IMG/VR virus record: IMGVR_UViG_3300010155_000099
Location: 1 to 23,344 of that record
Length of the DNA stretch: 23,344 nt
From: a virus
Reading direction: 5' to 3' (one strand)
Positions within the stretch are counted from its first letter, which is position 1, and every line of letters starts with the position of its first letter. This document shows, piece after piece, positions 844 to 8,309 of the stretch. The notes beneath the pieces were generated by a model. It did not search any database. It was not told where the DNA came from and was given only the letters and a program-made list of their open reading frames with translations. Made by a program: the position numbers and the translations under genes.

Positions 844-872
844 ATAATACTTCATTTTTTTAAATGTGTCAA
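844..872 (-). promoter_or_regulatory. Sigma70-like promoter for the gp32-like gene
   Basis: On the minus strand a perfect -35 TTGACA (872-867) is followed by a 17-nt spacer and a -10 TATTAT (849-844), five of six matches to TATAAT. This is the best sigma70 promoter I found in the window. The -35 box contains the TGA stop codon of the upstream tubulin-like gene, so promoter and gene end overlap. The predicted start is near 837, giving a leader of about 50 nt with the inverted repeat at 812-835. It would let the gp32-like gene be transcribed by unmodified host RNA polymerase, independently of the polymerase operon upstream. Confidence 0.7.
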
Positions 873-1717
873 GCATTTTTTTCATTTTTTTGAATGAGGG
901 TGCTATTTGATACACAATATACATATAATGTTTCATAATTTGTAGAATATACCGCATAACTGTTTCTCATTTTATCATGTTCAAGACCATTTTTAACTTG
1001 TTTTTTAATTTTTTTAACAAGTGTCCCATCAGAACTTAAAATTTTCTCTGGGATAGCATAATAATACCTTTTCTCTCTTGGCATGTCAAGGTCAAAAAAC
1101 ATATTTTCTTCTCCTGTTTCAAAATCTACTAAGCCAAAAGTTGATATTCGTGCTGTAAGCGTGGGCTCGAATAAGGTACTCATTGCTGATTCTGAGTTCT
1201 CAAAAACATTTATCATGTGAATTGTAGAACAAATTGTTTTATTTATTTGATTATAATATTCTCGTACTGGCGTCTCCCCAACTATCTCGGACACTTTTGT
1301 ATTGTCAACAATATAAAGCCTTTCAAGTAGTCCAGATCGAGCATATTCTTGAAAAACATTAAATACTAGATTTTCTTGAAAAGTTTTTTCTTTTGACAAG
1401 TTATTATTATCTGGTTTGATATAAAGTACGCTCACTTCACAGGTATTTTGTATTTGTTCCAGAAGACGTAAAGAGGCTCCAGAAATAAACCCACAACTTG
1501 TTATAAACAAAGTTGGGCCGGACATCCCCTTCAAAAGAGTTTGTTTTAAATTTGGAAACTTACTTTCGTACGCTTCTGGGCTTGCTTGATACTCCAAGGC
1601 GTACTCGTTCTCGAAATTTTTAAGCCCTACATCTATTTTACAGACTTTATATTGCGGATACTGTTTAAAGTATTCTGCGATGTTACAGCCTGCTTGTCCT
1701 AAACCAATTATATTCAT
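869..1717 (-). CDS. Divergent FtsZ/tubulin-like protein
   Basis: A 282-aa protein whose layout follows the tubulin/FtsZ GTPase fold. Residues 1-17 (MNIIGLGQAGCNIAEYF) match the first strand and glycine loop of FtsZ. Residues 68-90 (GPTLFITSCGFISGASLRLL) sit where FtsZ carries GGGTGTGAAP. Residues 93-101 and 109-146, ending in LERLYIVDNTKVSEI, match the following strand-helix-strand segment. The diagnostic G-box is not conserved (SCGFISGAS), and no clear NxDFAD-type T7 loop follows, so GTP hydrolysis by the usual mechanism is doubtful. It is shorter than typical FtsZ. The ATG follows the polymerase stop codon after one nucleotide, suggesting translational coupling. Its location in a replication cluster suggests DNA or replisome positioning or partition, but that is inference. 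It could also be an unrelated Rossmann-like protein; the fold call rests on motif order only. Confidence 0.55.
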   Translation of the reverse strand: MNIIGLGQAGCNIAEYFKQYPQYKVCKIDVGLKNFENEYALEYQASPEAYESKFPNLKQTLLKGMSGPTLFITSCGFISGASLRLLEQIQNTCEVSVLYIKPDNNNLSKEKTFQENLVFNVFQEYARSGLLERLYIVDNTKVSEIVGETPVREYYNQINKTICSTIHMINVFENSESAMSTLFEPTLTARISTFGLVDFETGEENMFFDLDMPREKRYYYAIPEKILSSDGTLVKKIKKQVKNGLEHDKMRNSYAVYSTNYETLYVYCVSNSTLIQKNEKNA

Positions 1718-1718
1718 T

Positions 1719-2909
1719 TTAGATACTTAATTTTTTCATTTCCCCGTAATTTTTACCCACTGATACGTTTACTACAAAATTTCCTAAATCAGTATCAGAA
1801 AATATCTTTTTTAATTTTGTTAAAATTTCCTTGTCTTCTTCAGAATAATCTATTATGAGAGAATCGTGCATACAAAAAGCAATCCTAGATTTTCTGTCTT
1901 CCAATATTCCCCAAACTTTAATCATTTGCTTAAAAAGCAGATCTGCTGCAGTTGACTGTATCAAATAATTTAATGCGTGATATTCATCAGTTTCAATTGT
2001 TCTGTCATAAATTGTTTGTATGTTGTGTCCATCCCAACAATCTTGTAACAATGATCCCCTATCATAAGCTTTAGTTGAAAGATAATCATTTGATTCTGGA
2101 TTATAAAGCCATGCAAATATTCTTTTTTTGGCTTTTTCTCGTGTAACTAATCCTTGATAAACATTCTTAACATTCCACGCGTGGAGATCTTCTTGTGGCT
2201 GTACTTTTTTCAGGAGGCCAAGCATAACACGCAACTCTGCAGCATTAAAATCAAATTCTATAAACCAATCATTGTTTGGCTTTAATATTCTTCTATAGTC
2301 CTTATCCATGGTTAAAATAGGAAAAGTGCTTGGCCGGGTAGAAAGTCTTCCTGTTTTTGTTTTAAAAGGGTCGTAGCTAATGTATGGTAGATTATTTTTG
2401 TTGTTTGATATAAATTTTCTAACTTTAAATTCGTGCCGGCGATTATTTAATGCCGAATAGTTGACATTAAGTTTTGTATTTTTAATTTCTGTTAGAACTT
2501 TTATGAGTTGCAGCATGAAGTCATGATTTTTGGGTTTTTCGTGACTTGAAAAAACAAAATCACATATTTTGTTTTTAATTTGAGCCAAGTCTTCTAAAAA
2601 AGATTTTGGTGTCATGTCATAAAAACAATGCTTGTTTAAATCTAGCTGTGCTTCTTCGCATGCTTTATAAAAGGCGATCAATTTATTTTTAACCTTTTCC
2701 CAGTCTTTTTGAAGATATTCTGGACATATTGCATCTAATGTTTTTCCTTTACAATAAATTTGTGCATATTCAATATTGTCTTTATTCTTTAATGATTCTG
2801 AATATGCCCAGGTCTTTGTCATTTTTTTAGGAAAGGTTTTAAGGTACAGCTTGTTTTTTGTGTACGTTGCGTTGCAGTTTTTTTTGTCGTCGAATGTTTG
2901 AAACAACAT
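1719..2909 (-). CDS. Compact family A (PolA-type) DNA polymerase
   Basis: A 396-aa replicative DNA polymerase reduced to the polymerase domain. Motifs appear in the family A order: TGRLS at 186-190; motif A FDFNAAELR at 219-227 with catalytic D220 and steric-gate E225; the D-x-H segment at 241-243; motif B (O-helix) R257-x3-K261-x3-F265-x3-Y269; QSTAAD at 318-323; motif C CMHDS at 346-350 with D349. The Glu that normally follows the motif C Asp is Ser350, and the Gly after the O-helix Tyr is Asn270. Only about 185 residues precede TGRLS, too few for a 3'-5' exonuclease plus thumb, and I see no exonuclease motifs, so proofreading must come from elsewhere or be absent. No ribosome site precedes the ATG; a sigma70-like promoter lies so close that the mRNA may be nearly leaderless. 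Met30 is a possible alternative start. Confidence 0.88.
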   Translation of the reverse strand: MLFQTFDDKKNCNATYTKNKLYLKTFPKKMTKTWAYSESLKNKDNIEYAQIYCKGKTLDAICPEYLQKDWEKVKNKLIAFYKACEEAQLDLNKHCFYDMTPKSFLEDLAQIKNKICDFVFSSHEKPKNHDFMLQLIKVLTEIKNTKLNVNYSALNNRRHEFKVRKFISNNKNNLPYISYDPFKTKTGRLSTRPSTFPILTMDKDYRRILKPNNDWFIEFDFNAAELRVMLGLLKKVQPQEDLHAWNVKNVYQGLVTREKAKKRIFAWLYNPESNDYLSTKAYDRGSLLQDCWDGHNIQTIYDRTIETDEYHALNYLIQSTAADLLFKQMIKVWGILEDRKSRIAFCMHDSLIIDYSEEDKEILTKLKKIFSDTDLGNFVVNVSVGKNYGEMKKLSI

Positions 2910-2962: not shown

Positions 2963-4858
2963 TTAAGAGGGGATCATTCCATTTTGAGAAGCGTTTAACA
3001 CTAGTTCGCCAATTGCTTGTTCTTTATCTTCTTTTCTATATATTTGTTTTAAGCCTTTCATCTTCTTTCTAATGATTTTGTTAATGTAAGCCAGCGCAAA
3101 AGGTAAATCAGAATTGATTGAATGTGTGTGGTCTAATGGACCGGCTACGACTCCCAGAGATGTTCCTGTTCTCCCAACTGGCTGTATAGCCCAATTGATT
3201 ATTTTGTGATCGTGCCACTGCGACTGTGGTCCGACACTGGACATTGCCACTGTGCCATTCCCATATTTATCAACAAAATATTTATGTGTATGGTCGTGAT
3301 TTTTCGTTGTGGTGCCCTTTAATTTAGATTTCCCTGTGTTATCGATAAAATTTAAAGTTGCCAACTCCATTATCTTTTTTAGATGTTTATTATATTCAAA
3401 TAGTTTTAATTTTATATTACTTTCCGCCAATTTGATATCAAAATACATTTTAATCCAAAAGAATTCATTATATAATTTATCATATTCTTGTTCAGATAAC
3501 AACTTTAACTTTATTTCTTTAGTAGTAAACTTTGGTGCTATTCCTGGTTTATTAGAACATAAAATTCTTTTTTTAGTGATCGGGTTTTGTACATAATAGC
3601 TTAGGTACCAAGTATATACAGTTTTTTTAATTTCTTCTATTTCGTCTAAGTATGGAATATCATAGTAAATTTCAAAAAATTTATCAAATTTAAGTACTCT
3701 TGACCGACATACTTTAAAGGTTTCTCCTGTGCATATTGCTGCTCCATTAATATCCCATTCTGGGCTTTTAGCATTATAAAGTTCTTTTGTCTCCGTCAGG
3801 CCGGCCGCGAATGTTTCGTTTGCCACGTCAACTAAAACATCATTAAGTTCTTTTTCCAGTTGTTCTTGGCGTTCGGCGATCTCTGAAGGGCTAGCCGTGG
3901 CTTTTTCTAGGTTAGCTCCTTCATAAGTGCCGTCTACAATGCCTTCCACTGTTGGCCATTCAGGAAATTCTGATTTTATTGCTATTTCTGTTGCCTCTAC
4001 GATGGCGTTTTGTCTTTTTTGTATTATACTTTCTTCATATGCAATTCGCATATATTCGCGCATTTTAAGTGATTTAACATCTGCGACCAACCTCCACGGC
4101 ACATTTCTATCTATCATAAATCCAAACCTTCGTGCAACAATTCTATAAACATTAAAGTTTGGATCAGTAAGAAACTTGTGTTTCTTTTCATCATTATCAT
4201 AAGTTTCTGTATCAATTTCAACACATAAGCCAGTAGCCAATGGTGACGTGGAGTAGGTACTAATTGTGCCACTTTTTGTAAATGGTATCTCTGAGGCGAC
4301 ACCTTTTAAATATGTGAGAAAAAGATTCGTAAAGTCTGAGATGTTTGATATTTTTTCTTTATGTTTCGGCGTTCCGGAAGAGAGGAATTGAGAAACAAAA
4401 ACAAAGTAGTGCATTTTTTTCTGTAGTGCGCTTATTGCCCCAAGATCCGGGACGCCCTTGCTTGCTACAAAATCTGCAATCGGCCCGCCAGAAGAAAGCC
4501 AACTAGCTCGTACCAAAGATTTAATATTTGCTTTTAAATCCTTAAAAGCTGCGGCAACAAAATCAAACACAAGGACTTGGCCTGCGCCATCGTTAAGATT
4601 TGTCATTCTTTTGTAAGTTAACTCCCCGTCGACATGAGCACTTTTGGGTATTATATAATCTCCATTTAAATTAACTTTTCCATACAAAGGATTTTCATTA
4701 ATGAAATCAAAAGGCTTGTCAATCCAAGGCAATTTCCCATCTGGATATACTTTTTCATAATAATATTTTTTCTCATCGTAAAGCTCATTAGAGCTTCCCA
4801 TTGAGTTATTGCCTTTTGGAATTTTTGCAATTTCAAATAACTCGTCCATTGATGCCAT
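2963..4858 (-). CDS. Putative baseplate or tail-tip protein with HxH metal-binding motifs
   Basis: A 631-aa protein that I cannot assign to a named T4 gene. The distinctive part is the C-terminal region: HDHTH at 521-525, a glycine-rich GNG turn near 533, HDH at 549-551 and DHTH at 576-579, seven histidines in under 60 residues. Clustered HxH motifs coordinate iron or another metal along the axis of trimeric phage spikes and fibre tips (known for P2 gpV and T4 gp37), so a metal-stabilised tip or connector is a reasonable reading. A helical, charged segment lies at about 325-345. The ATG follows an AGAAGGAG ribosome site, and the gene sits 43 nt after the hub candidate as the last structural gene before the replication genes. 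Virion location is inferred from position and motif; the exact role is unknown. Confidence 0.55.
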   Translation of the reverse strand: MASMDELFEIAKIPKGNNSMGSSNELYDEKKYYYEKVYPDGKLPWIDKPFDFINENPLYGKVNLNGDYIIPKSAHVDGELTYKRMTNLNDGAGQVLVFDFVAAAFKDLKANIKSLVRASWLSSGGPIADFVASKGVPDLGAISALQKKMHYFVFVSQFLSSGTPKHKEKISNISDFTNLFLTYLKGVASEIPFTKSGTISTYSTSPLATGLCVEIDTETYDNDEKKHKFLTDPNFNVYRIVARRFGFMIDRNVPWRLVADVKSLKMREYMRIAYEESIIQKRQNAIVEATEIAIKSEFPEWPTVEGIVDGTYEGANLEKATASPSEIAERQEQLEKELNDVLVDVANETFAAGLTETKELYNAKSPEWDINGAAICTGETFKVCRSRVLKFDKFFEIYYDIPYLDEIEEIKKTVYTWYLSYYVQNPITKKRILCSNKPGIAPKFTTKEIKLKLLSEQEYDKLYNEFFWIKMYFDIKLAESNIKLKLFEYNKHLKKIMELATLNFIDNTGKSKLKGTTTKNHDHTHKYFVDKYGNGTVAMSSVGPQSQWHDHKIINWAIQPVGRTGTSLGVVAGPLDHTHSINSDLPFALAYINKIIRKKMKGLKQIYRKEDKEQAIGELVLNASQNGMIPS

Positions 4859-4901: not shown

Positions 4902-7900
4902 TTAAAAGTCCGGCATTGTTGACATCACGGGCAATGTGTCGCGTCCAGAAATAGATGCTCGGAGTGCGAGTTCTGCCTCACCGGCGAGTAAAATATTAAC
5001 ATAACTTGTGTCGACCAATCCTTTATTTTTACCACCATCACAACTTCCAAAAGTTTCCCAAACTGCACTGATGCTTGTTATGTGCGAAGGATCTCCCCCT
5101 GCATTAATTGCATGATCAACTTCGACCACTCTATAAAAACCGCCAATACCAAGATCTTTCCATTGTTCATAATCTGCAGATCCATCTTTTGTTGGGTCTA
5201 CAAAAAATAACATTCCTGGTTTAAATATATTGTTTCCATACATAGAACAGCTAAATCTATAAACATCTCTTAGCGCGACACCTCCTGTTCGAGTTATTTG
5301 GCCCATCGCGCGCGCCTCCCTTAAGTAGGCTATATTTTCTTTGTTAAATGTTGCCCCTCTTACGATGGAGGGAATCTTTCCTAAATGTAAATAATGTATG
5401 CCATTATATATATTATTTTCTTCATTTGCTGGATCTAAATGTATCGGCGAAAAATTATTTACGTAAATGAGCATATAATTATATTGCTGTGAAACTGGCG
5501 TGTCAGGAGAGATTGATGTGATATCTGTTAAGTGAATAAGTCTGCGAAGATGATCATCATCTGTCGTTGTACTATCCCATGCTACCCCTGTTTCGTCTAG
5601 TGTGTACAAAGAAGTGCCGCCGGGTGGATATATCGAGGAGGCTGTGTCCGTGCCCGTCGGTTGGCGCCAATCTGGGAGGAATGGTGGAACATATTTATTT
5701 TGCCATTTTTCACTAAGGGCTCCTCTGCCATCGAACGGCAGACGCACGTCGTTGGGATCATATTTTTTCATTTTAGTTGTGAAAGTCACCGTTCCAATTT
5801 CTTGGTTTCCGCCTAGTGCCCCTTCAACGCATCGAGACCCCAAACTTGGTAAAATTAAATCTTGAATGAGGTCTTTTATAAAATCGCCTAACAAATATCT
5901 TTCTCTTGAACTTGCTATTACTTTTTTTGCAAAAAAGCCCATCAAAGCTTTTAAAGAAATAGGTACCCAAGCTAAATTAAAAAGATATCTGTCACTAATC
6001 GCAGAAGTTCCGTAATGATTTTCAAGCAGTGGACCAAGTAAATATCCCATCCCCCTATCAAATGTGCCATGACCCGAAGAAGCAATTGTAATTGCGACAT
6101 CCAATATATCGCCTAAAGTAGTGAAATAAATTTTAGCACTATTCGAGCTAAGGTCGCTGGGCTTTGATAAAACTTTGCCACCTAGAATATCTTGTTGTTT
6201 TTGACTTAATGACTTAACCTCGTGTCTTTTCTTTGTTTTTTGTATACTCTGCGTCGGATCCGACGTCTGGGATATTGCCTCCCATGCGCCCGCTATCTCT
6301 TTAGCACTTTTATTGCCTTTTGACCCACGGTCGACAGGTCGAACTACCTTAACCGAATCTGGTTGGAAGGCTATGGCCGCGGTTTCATCTTGTTTCCTGG
6401 TCCTCTCCGTGCTGCGAGTCTTGGCTGTTTTTTGTTCTGATGCCATTTTGCCGCTCTTGCTAGAATATCCAAGCTGAGCTTCTGCTTGGTTCACTCCAAC
6501 GGAATATACTCTTTCCAAGTGCCAAAGATGTGAAAAAATATTTTTATATTTTTGCCCAACATTAAAGCGACGCCAAGACCTTAAATACTCTCTAAGTTTG
6601 TCAACCATTTCTTGAAAAACAGCTACTGCATTTCCTGTATCATTTAATGCTGTTTCTAGATTCTTGGGGTCAAATTTAAGGCCCCGCCTAACCTGAACAA
6701 ATTGTTCTGTCATCCTTTTGGATTTGGCTTTGCTTTCGCTTTCTGCTTTATCAAGATGTTTATCTGTAGGGATGATATTCTTCATTTTTCCCATCTTATT
6801 GGGATTCCAAATTAAATATGATAATACCCCAGCATTGTCTTCTAAAAAGCCTCTTAGCTTATTATATGATGCGGCAGCTGCACTTTTATTCTTGCCGTCT
6901 TGACCGAATATTGCCCCTAAAGTAAGTTGTTCACGTTTTACTGCTTCTAAAGTTCTTCGGGCCCGTGCAAGATTATTCTCTGCGTCTACTAACACTCCTT
7001 CTTCCCCGCCTAAATTAAATATATCTAACTCTGGGTCGTTTAAAACACCTTCAATATAAGCCTTATATTCAAAGTCTATTAATAATTCTGGGTCGGCGCC
7101 GCTTGATTTTGCATTATATTTAATTGTATGAGCAGCAAATTGCAATCTCAGCATTATTGTTGAGTTTCTTAAAAACGATTTTAATCTTTCTTGGCTTTCA
7201 TTATATTCCGCTATCCATTTCTTCTTTTTTTTATTATAAGTTTTCTTCGTGATGAATTGGTCGCCTGTCCCATATGCAGCTGTGCCAAACATATCCCAAT
7301 CTATGTCATCTGGATTATAGCGAATTGCCATTTGTATTTCAAAAAATTCAGAATTTGGGGTGCCTCCGAGATCGAAACTCGCATTATTTTCAATAAATTT
7401 ATCTCCGCTTGTATAGCAGCTAATATCAGTTGCTAGTGATGGTGAATCGATAGGAGTATTGGTTGAGTTATTTTTTCGTAAGAATCTATTTGAATACGAA
7501 ATTAAATCTTTATAGCTCCATTCTACAACTTCGCTTTCATCGACAGTTGTTTTTTCATCATCTGGGTATACAGTTTGCTTAAAAAGGTGATTGAACAAAT
7601 TAAAAGAAGAGAAAGATAAAGTAAATCTTACATTCTCCACGGTATTTAGCAGGGCCACGTTTTTTCCAGCAAACTTAAATGACAGATCAGTTAGCATAAC
7701 ATTTCCAAGAACTCCATGATCATAAAAAAGATTTTCTATAGAAGACATTCCTGTCTTAGACGATGGCATGCCTTCTTCAGCTGCTCTAATGTTTTCGCCC
7801 AGAGGCATTAATATTTTGTGTCGGATTCGTTTTTCGTGCGAAGTCTTGTTTGAGGTCTCTCCTACTGATGGATAAATTTTATATAATCTTATTTCTGGCT

Positions 7901-8309
7901 TAAGTTGCGTTAAAATAGAAGAATCCAAACTAAAAAACAGGTCGGCGCCATCCAAATTATTAAAAGTATTCACCACTGTTGAAGGAGTCTCTGAAATAAT
8001 AGAACTAATATGCTGGTGGGAGTACACTGCTTCACATGTGGAGATCTTCCCGTCCGGGCACGTAGTCACCATTACCTCTGGATAGTCCCTATAAAATTCA
8101 TTGTCTTTATTGTCGGGCGAAGTTCTTCCAACATGCAAGCTTAAAGGGTAGCGCTTCAAACTTACCCATTCTGCAAAAATGTTCGCTTTCCAAAAATGTA
8201 AAAAACATTGCTCTTGAAAACGATATCTTTCTCCTCTGCTGAGAGCGGCAGATTCTTCAAGGCGTATATCAGTTACGTCTCCGGTGTTAAAACTATTGCC
8301 GTTACCCAT
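4902..8309 (-). CDS. Very large baseplate hub-like virion protein
   Basis: A 1135-aa protein, probably a baseplate hub component. The clearest clue is the C-terminal part from about 943: LREARAMGQITRTGGVALRD, SMYGNNIFKPGMLFFVDP (1023-1039) and LGIGGFYRVVEVDH (1053-1066). These resemble tail hub domains (gp27/gpD-like) that describe a placement on the tube followed by a value strand. A helical segment rich in Arg and Glu lies at 438-465, and a Lys/Arg/Ser-rich, probably flexible linker at about 618-700 separates the N- and C-terminal halves. The size exceeds T4 gp27 and gp5 together. I found no lysozyme motif. It starts 11 nt after the LysM wedge gene, whose final codons overlap its ribosome site AAAAGGAG. 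Structural role is well supported by context; hub identity is moderate, and a wedge protein is an alternative. Confidence 0.6.
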   Translation of the reverse strand: MGNGNSFNTGDVTDIRLEESAALSRGERYRFQEQCFLHFWKANIFAEWVSLKRYPLSLHVGRTSPDNKDNEFYRDYPEVMVTTCPDGKISTCEAVYSHQHISSIISETPSTVVNTFNNLDGADLFFSLDSSILTQLKPEIRLYKIYPSVGETSNKTSHEKRIRHKILMPLGENIRAAEEGMPSSKTGMSSIENLFYDHGVLGNVMLTDLSFKFAGKNVALLNTVENVRFTLSFSSFNLFNHLFKQTVYPDDEKTTVDESEVVEWSYKDLISYSNRFLRKNNSTNTPIDSPSLATDISCYTSGDKFIENNASFDLGGTPNSEFFEIQMAIRYNPDDIDWDMFGTAAYGTGDQFITKKTYNKKKKKWIAEYNESQERLKSFLRNSTIMLRLQFAAHTIKYNAKSSGADPELLIDFEYKAYIEGVLNDPELDIFNLGGEEGVLVDAENNLARARRTLEAVKREQLTLGAIFGQDGKNKSAAAASYNKLRGFLEDNAGVLSYLIWNPNKMGKMKNIIPTDKHLDKAESESKAKSKRMTEQFVQVRRGLKFDPKNLETALNDTGNAVAVFQEMVDKLREYLRSWRRFNVGQKYKNIFSHLWHLERVYSVGVNQAEAQLGYSSKSGKMASEQKTAKTRSTERTRKQDETAAIAFQPDSVKVVRPVDRGSKGNKSAKEIAGAWEAISQTSDPTQSIQKTKKRHEVKSLSQKQQDILGGKVLSKPSDLSSNSAKIYFTTLGDILDVAITIASSGHGTFDRGMGYLLGPLLENHYGTSAISDRYLFNLAWVPISLKALMGFFAKKVIASSRERYLLGDFIKDLIQDLILPSLGSRCVEGALGGNQEIGTVTFTTKMKKYDPNDVRLPFDGRGALSEKWQNKYVPPFLPDWRQPTGTDTASSIYPPGGTSLYTLDETGVAWDSTTTDDDHLRRLIHLTDITSISPDTPVSQQYNYMLIYVNNFSPIHLDPANEENNIYNGIHYLHLGKIPSIVRGATFNKENIAYLREARAMGQITRTGGVALRDVYRFSCSMYGNNIFKPGMLFFVDPTKDGSADYEQWKDLGIGGFYRVVEVDHAINAGGDPSHITSISAVWETFGSCDGGKNKGLVDTSYVNILLAGEAELALRASISGRDTLPVMSTMPDF

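Follow-up and report, generated by a model that had tools for sequence, protein, structure and literature searches.

What does a tubulin-like protein do when its gene lies between a DNA polymerase gene and a single-strand DNA-binding protein gene, and its catalytic signatures cannot be recognised? The question is raised by a protein, here called Z, encoded in an IMG/VR virus record of 23,344 bases (the window). The original prediction had described Z as a degenerate tubulin/FtsZ relative in a replication operon, one that may act as a non-polymerising scaffold or position replicating DNA. As described below, Z represents a new family within the tubulin superfamily, one that is apparently catalysis-dead.

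Genomic context of Z

In the window, T4-type virion genes (major head protein, tail sheath, tail tube and baseplate parts) lead into the replication cassette that contains Z (Table 1). The polymerase next to Z, named beforehand as a phage DNA polymerase, is of family A; it matched PF00476 with an E-value of 1.3e-16 (60.9 bits, against a cut-off of 34.3), and its model (pLDDT 94.4) is of Klenow-type fold, with Z-scores of 24-25 to the Pol I large fragments of Bst and KlenTaq. The window polymerase is about 150-180 residues shorter than the matched fragments, and its motif C reads HDS instead of HDE; the polymerase of L023 has HDE. Two large proteins are encoded just upstream of the polymerase, both on the minus strand and without PHROG match: one of 1135 residues (4902-8309) and one of 631 residues (2963-4858), the latter holding His-rich HDHTH and DHTH stretches.

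The single base said to separate the polymerase stop from the Z start was read directly in the sequence. On the other side, the gp32 identity of the next gene stands; its position directly after Z involves a gap of 83 bases.

Table 1. Features of the Z locus; positions are those of the window, and residue numbers are those of Z.
Feature	Position	Strand	Basis
Z, tubulin-superfamily protein, 282 aa	869..1717	-	ORF with ATG start; AlphaFold2 model; structure matches; dN/dS
T1 loop equivalent, residues 5-12, GLGQAGCN (cf. tubulin GQCGNQ)	1682..1705	-	Conservation; hhalign to FtsZ, CetZ-like and archaeal T1
T4 loop equivalent, residues 74-80, SCGFISG (canonical GGGTG[ST]G)	1478..1498	-	Motif count, 216 members
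Residues 119-129, FNVFQEYARSG, end of H4, holding Q123, R127 and S128	1331..1363	-	Entropy
N139, aligned to the Asn after S6 of FtsZ/CetZ	1301..1303	-	hhalign; invariant in 110 members, at least 95% in 216
N159 in H7	1241..1243	-	Aligned to AYERIN of CetZ-like protein; invariant in 110 members, at least 95% in 216
T7/H8 equivalent, residues 174-189, without catalytic acidic motif and without helix	1151..1198	-	Model; motif count; variability
Compact family A DNA polymerase, 396 aa, motif A DFNAAELR, motif C HDS	1719..2909	-	PF00476; model; alignment
gp32-like single-strand DNA-binding protein, 252 aa	27..785	-	PF08804 1.7e-13; phrog_1192 2e-25
Polymerase stop/Z start junction, TAA-A-ATG	1715..1721	-	Read directly; TAA 1719-1721, ATG 1715-1717

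Predicted structure and family assignment

Z was modelled with AlphaFold2 from a 33-sequence alignment of the family; the model has a pLDDT of 93.3 and a pTM of 0.91. It contains the tubulin arrangement, with an N-terminal nucleotide domain, the core helix H7 and a C-terminal domain, and its full-length matches have Z-scores of 21-24. When the model was compared with the PDB by Foldseek, the top 50 matches were all FtsZ, TubZ or tubulin (best E-value 2.5e-12, TM-scores of 0.60-0.74 on the query). A second structural aligner, covering residues 1-282, gave Z-scores of 24.2 for CetZ, 23.2 for TubZ, 22.7 for FtsZ and about 21.7 for tubulins. An unrelated NAD-binding or other Rossmann fold, named beforehand as the outcome that would speak against the tubulin assignment, is out, because the leading structure matches all belong to the tubulin superfamily. 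As judged from the predicted model, the tubulin-superfamily fold of Z is secure over its full length.

At the sequence level, the window protein has no convincing family in PHROG, Pfam, NCBIfam or PADLOC, and the Z profile gave no significant match to the sequences of PDB chains. In agreement with the fold, Tubulin (PF00091) is the Pfam family matched by most members, namely by 13 of 33 at E-values up to 1 (best 0.0048), all under the curated cut-off; weak matches to Pyr_redox_2, TrkA_N and ApbA, also under cut-off, fall mostly on the GxGxxG-like start of Z. The FtsZ equivalog TIGR00065 did not match the window protein, and L021 reached 12.9 bits against a cut-off of 295.2.

A sequence bridge is provided by archaeal FtsZ-like proteins, which matched the family profile with E-values of 6.8e-7 and 1.9e-6; one of them matches PF00091 at 4.4e-14. 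In hhalign, the profile alignment between the Z family and the archaeal FtsZ-like proteins has an E-value of 1.2e-7 for this single comparison. The two archaeal proteins (L179:214-1242 and L183:568-1593, the latter on the minus strand) are the nearest cellular sequences found to the Z family; they are small, 341-342 residues in length, with a T4 loop of the form GGTGASG. As the PDB matches of the model and PF00091 show, the FtsZ likeness of Z is more than chance.

The polymerase-Z-gp32 order is conserved

No relative of Z was found by tblastn among 50,697 phage records. When 84,980 cellular species were scanned for homologues or a host, one archaeal FtsZ-like protein was the only match, and no host is therefore assigned. 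Profile scans of IMG/VR, by contrast, recovered 516 and then at least 579 stretches that encode relatives of Z. A literature search, with most subscription journals outside its reach, gave no description of a polymerase-linked, catalysis-dead phage tubulin. The family is large and apparently undescribed.

The gene order is shared by hundreds of uncultured phages. Where the contig extends far enough, the polymerase lies upstream of Z in 97 of 97 unique members and gp32 lies downstream in 105 of 105. Polymerase and Z genes overlap or are at most 10 nt apart in 62 of the 97, with a 4-nt overlap in 24; since the gap exceeds 60 nt in 29 of them, tight coupling of the two genes is not essential. In about 30% of the relatives, additional small genes lie between those for polymerase and Z (L019:2550-3551, for example), which indicates that this spot takes up variable genes.

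To guard against ascertainment bias, reverse searches were started from the polymerase and from gp32. Among the best 80 loci of each search, Z is present at 75 of 77 polymerase loci and at 68 of 73 gp32 loci; the two polymerase loci without Z, and four of the five such gp32 loci, are cut short by contig ends. At the fifth (L346), a 393-residue ORF (138-1319) lies directly upstream of gp32 in the place of Z, and its start appears ParB-like by eye. Beyond the best 80 loci, distant polymerases without Z do exist, as shown by two isolate phages: Flavobacterium phage immuto and Microcystis phage Mel-JY01 possess a related cassette (polymerase, gp32, RecA, exonuclease and helicase) that lacks Z. The 428-residue protein that takes its place in Mel-JY01 (L221:9445-10731, just before gp32) is annotated as hypothetical; it matched PF23780 with an E-value of 4.4e-10 and is of SAM-lyase type, not a Z protein.

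In relatives of the window, the genes that come after gp32 encode a UvsX-like recombinase and a 5'-3' exonuclease; a DnaB-type helicase is present in eight of nine large contigs. The sliding clamp family PF02916 had no match in the nine large contigs, but as the controls gave none as well, this result is uninformative. A search for genes in which Z is fused to polymerase or gp32 found none. The evolutionary distances of Z, polymerase and gp32 correlate, most highly between Z and polymerase (0.645; partial correlation 0.459); as all three genes are co-inherited, this is weak support for the replisome role favoured below. Pairwise dN/dS of Z is 0.06-0.11, and the gene is therefore kept by strong purifying selection. 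Taken together, Z belongs to the core of the replication cassette in an uncultured clade of T4-type phages.

Catalytic motifs are lost and most of the nucleotide pocket is kept

Residues of Z were mapped by profile alignments and secondary structure rather than by residue-level structural alignment, and motifs were counted over 216 unique members. The segment SCGFISGAS, which had been pointed out at the position of the GTP-binding signature, corresponds to residues 74-82. The canonical T4 loop is present in none of the 216 members, the commonest forms being SCGxVSG and GSGxISG, and the conservation of the T4 equivalent alone is not above random (P 0.19). The T7 loop, which had been called unrecognisable, is indeed so: the NxDxxD motif is absent from the T7 region of the window protein and of all 216 members (0/216). 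In the model, H7 spans residues 151-173 and no helix follows until the next strand at residue 191, which indicates that T7 and H8 are missing; from the order of strands and helices, H9 seems to be absent as well. The T7/H8 equivalent is more variable than random (P 0.0033), whereas the same segment of 30 FtsZ sequences is more conserved than random (P 0.016).

Different from the catalytic parts, T1, T3, T5, N139 and N159 are among the better conserved positions of Z, so the term 'degenerate' was too broad. The T1 equivalent is conserved above random (P 0.0009), and among 20,000 random sets there was none with an entropy as low as that of 29 pocket positions, which include T1, T3, T5 and the guanine-site Asn residues. 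The Asn after S6 of FtsZ and CetZ, which contacts guanine (N166 region of FtsZ), is presumably N139 of Z; N159 we take to be the guanine-contacting Asn/Asp of tubulin and FtsZ (N228 of tubulin, by analogy). Because these positions are well conserved, guanine nucleotide binding has probably been kept by Z. The loss of canonical T4, T7 and H8, on the other hand, argues against hydrolysis and against the standard longitudinal contacts.

The most conserved segment of Z is formed by residues 119-129 (entropy under random, P 0.0001), and to our knowledge it has no canonical tubulin counterpart. The strongest conservation is that of Y23, Q123, R127, S128, H167, N170 and Q276; we know of no canonical tubulin role for any of them, and from their conservation we take these residues as a putative partner-binding or self-association face.

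Comparison with known tubulin-superfamily systems

The best structural match of Z is archaeal CetZ (PDB 3zid, 4b45 and 4b46), which superimposed over the full length with an rmsd of 2.9 over 259 residues. The identity is 12-16%, and Z, with 282 residues, is shorter than the CetZ structures (330-342 residues). Unlike CetZ, Z lacks canonical T4, T7 and H8 and is encoded in a phage replication cassette. TubZ (PDB 2xka and 4ei7), the partition tubulin of plasmids and phages, also shares the fold (274 residues aligned, 15-18% identity); it is the GTPase of a tubR-tubC partition system with dynamic filaments (PMC7762940, PMC5322520). Z, by comparison, lacks T7, and its gene has those for polymerase and gp32 as neighbours.

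PhuZ of the phiKZ-like jumbo phages resembles Z in being a phage-encoded protein of tubulin fold, and a DNA-handling role is plausible for both. By tblastn, Z and PhuZ (gp39 of phiKZ, gp59 of 201phi2-1) share no matches (179 PhuZ records, none in common), and hhalign gave a weak match with an E-value of 8e-4 for the single pair. PhuZ possesses a catalytic T7 loop and a long C-terminal tail and forms dynamic filaments (PMC7950403), whereas the T7 motif is absent from Z. In phiKZ, the PhuZ gene lies at a distance of about 11 genes from that of the DNA polymerase. The predicted difference of Z from the PhuZ and TubZ systems is thus supported.

Divergent tubulin-superfamily families have been recognised from sequence before, namely FtsZl1 and FtsZl2 (Makarova and Koonin 2010), of which FtsZl1 has no recognisable T6-H7; these cellular proteins are tied to membrane remodelling and were found via an intact GGGTG(S/T)G loop (PMC2875224). 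Z differs from both in lacking that intact T4 loop and in being a phage replication-cassette gene. The best viral structural match of Z is A0A6J5RW92, annotated as 'FtsZ Cell division GTPase' of an uncultured Caudovirales phage (E-value 6.7e-13, TM-score 0.77 on the query), which is 452 residues in length and 18% identical. With its fold secure, the Z family is distinct in both motifs and context.

Possible functions of Z

A function in replication is suggested by the fixed position of Z, the frequent stop/start coupling and the purifying selection. The reading we favour, and to which we give slightly less than an even chance, is that Z is a nucleotide-binding, non-hydrolysing scaffold or accessory replisome subunit, a dedicated component of the replication machinery of the clade. 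Z would still bind guanine nucleotide, but it could not complete a catalytic site of the kind that arises between the subunits of canonical tubulins, and would not become a dynamic filament. Its role would instead be that of a static scaffold or accessory subunit, stabilised by nucleotide and produced in concert with the polymerase. Through the family-specific invariant residues Y23, Q123, R127, S128, H167, N170 and Q276 it may bind the polymerase, gp32 or both, the partner being a guess, and may thereby organise or anchor the replisome, in a nucleotide state that is likewise a guess. A narrower version, in which Z is a fixed replisome subunit that governs the assembly, processivity or anchoring of the polymerase through its nucleotide-bound state and without any filament, is tentative and appears somewhat less probable. 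Adjacency of polymerase, Z and gp32 is not proof of a complex, and the cassettes of immuto and Mel-JY01, which work without Z, count against a replisome role.

The main rival, which we consider unlikely though a serious contender, is that Z forms non-dynamic filaments, a static PhuZ-like skeleton by which phage DNA is held or positioned during replication, without a direct role in the replisome. The tubulin fold of Z is complete, and the highly conserved residues could form a new self-association face. PhuZ T7 mutants that have lost hydrolysis still form non-dynamic filaments (PMC7950403); therefore, loss of T7 alone is no proof of lost polymerisation. A prophage actin-like protein is required for efficient phage DNA replication (PMC4446434), which also fits a skeleton. 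However, Z lacks H8 and T7, which make up half of the canonical longitudinal contact, and the segment is variable; in the model, Z ends shortly after its last strand, with no filament-specific tail like that of PhuZ, and no DNA-binding adaptor gene was recognised next to Z.

It is improbable, to a clearly greater degree, that nucleotide binding has been lost too and that the tubulin fold now serves solely as a platform for binding other proteins, for example as a processivity or loading factor of the polymerase, comparable to thioredoxin for T7 polymerase. The alteration of the T4 phosphate loop in all members, the fact that most of the invariant residues are not canonical nucleotide contacts, and the constant position beside a compact polymerase would agree with such a platform, as would the conservation of the T4 equivalent, which is not above random; the conservation of T1, T3, T5, N139 and N159 would be hard to explain without a ligand, although the T1 glycines can be structural.

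FtsZ is a common phage target, and a tubulin fold that lacks T7/H8 could attach to an FtsZ filament at one end and leave the other end blocked, so that Z might be a poison subunit or cap that halts host cell division during infection. We regard this as very improbable: at about 11-13% identity between Z and FtsZ, copolymerisation is unlikely, Z evolves slowly, and it is fixed in the replication cassette, whereas host-takeover genes are usually scattered and variable. Least credible of all is an active GTPase with a cryptic T7 loop, for which one profile alignment puts HMINVFENSESAM opposite GLMNVDFADVRTVM of FtsZ and N170 is conserved in at least 95% of members, since the catalytic Asp positions there are F/Y/C/L (172) and S/T/I/Q (175), with an acidic residue in 0-1% of members, and the model puts residues 151-173 in H7.

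The known phage tubulins, PhuZ and TubZ, are active GTPases and use dynamic filaments to transport DNA or cargo, whereas the Z family is without the catalytic parts. Its fold and most of its pocket positions are nonetheless under strong selection, with the gene fixed between those for polymerase and single-strand-binding protein, and it can serve as a marker gene for this large clade of uncultured phages. If Z works in the replisome, one can test directly whether a tubulin fold is able to act without hydrolysis or polymerisation. Our observations suggest that a cytoskeletal fold has been turned into a fixed part of the phage DNA-copying machinery; under the same condition, such a fold would have been recruited into DNA synthesis.
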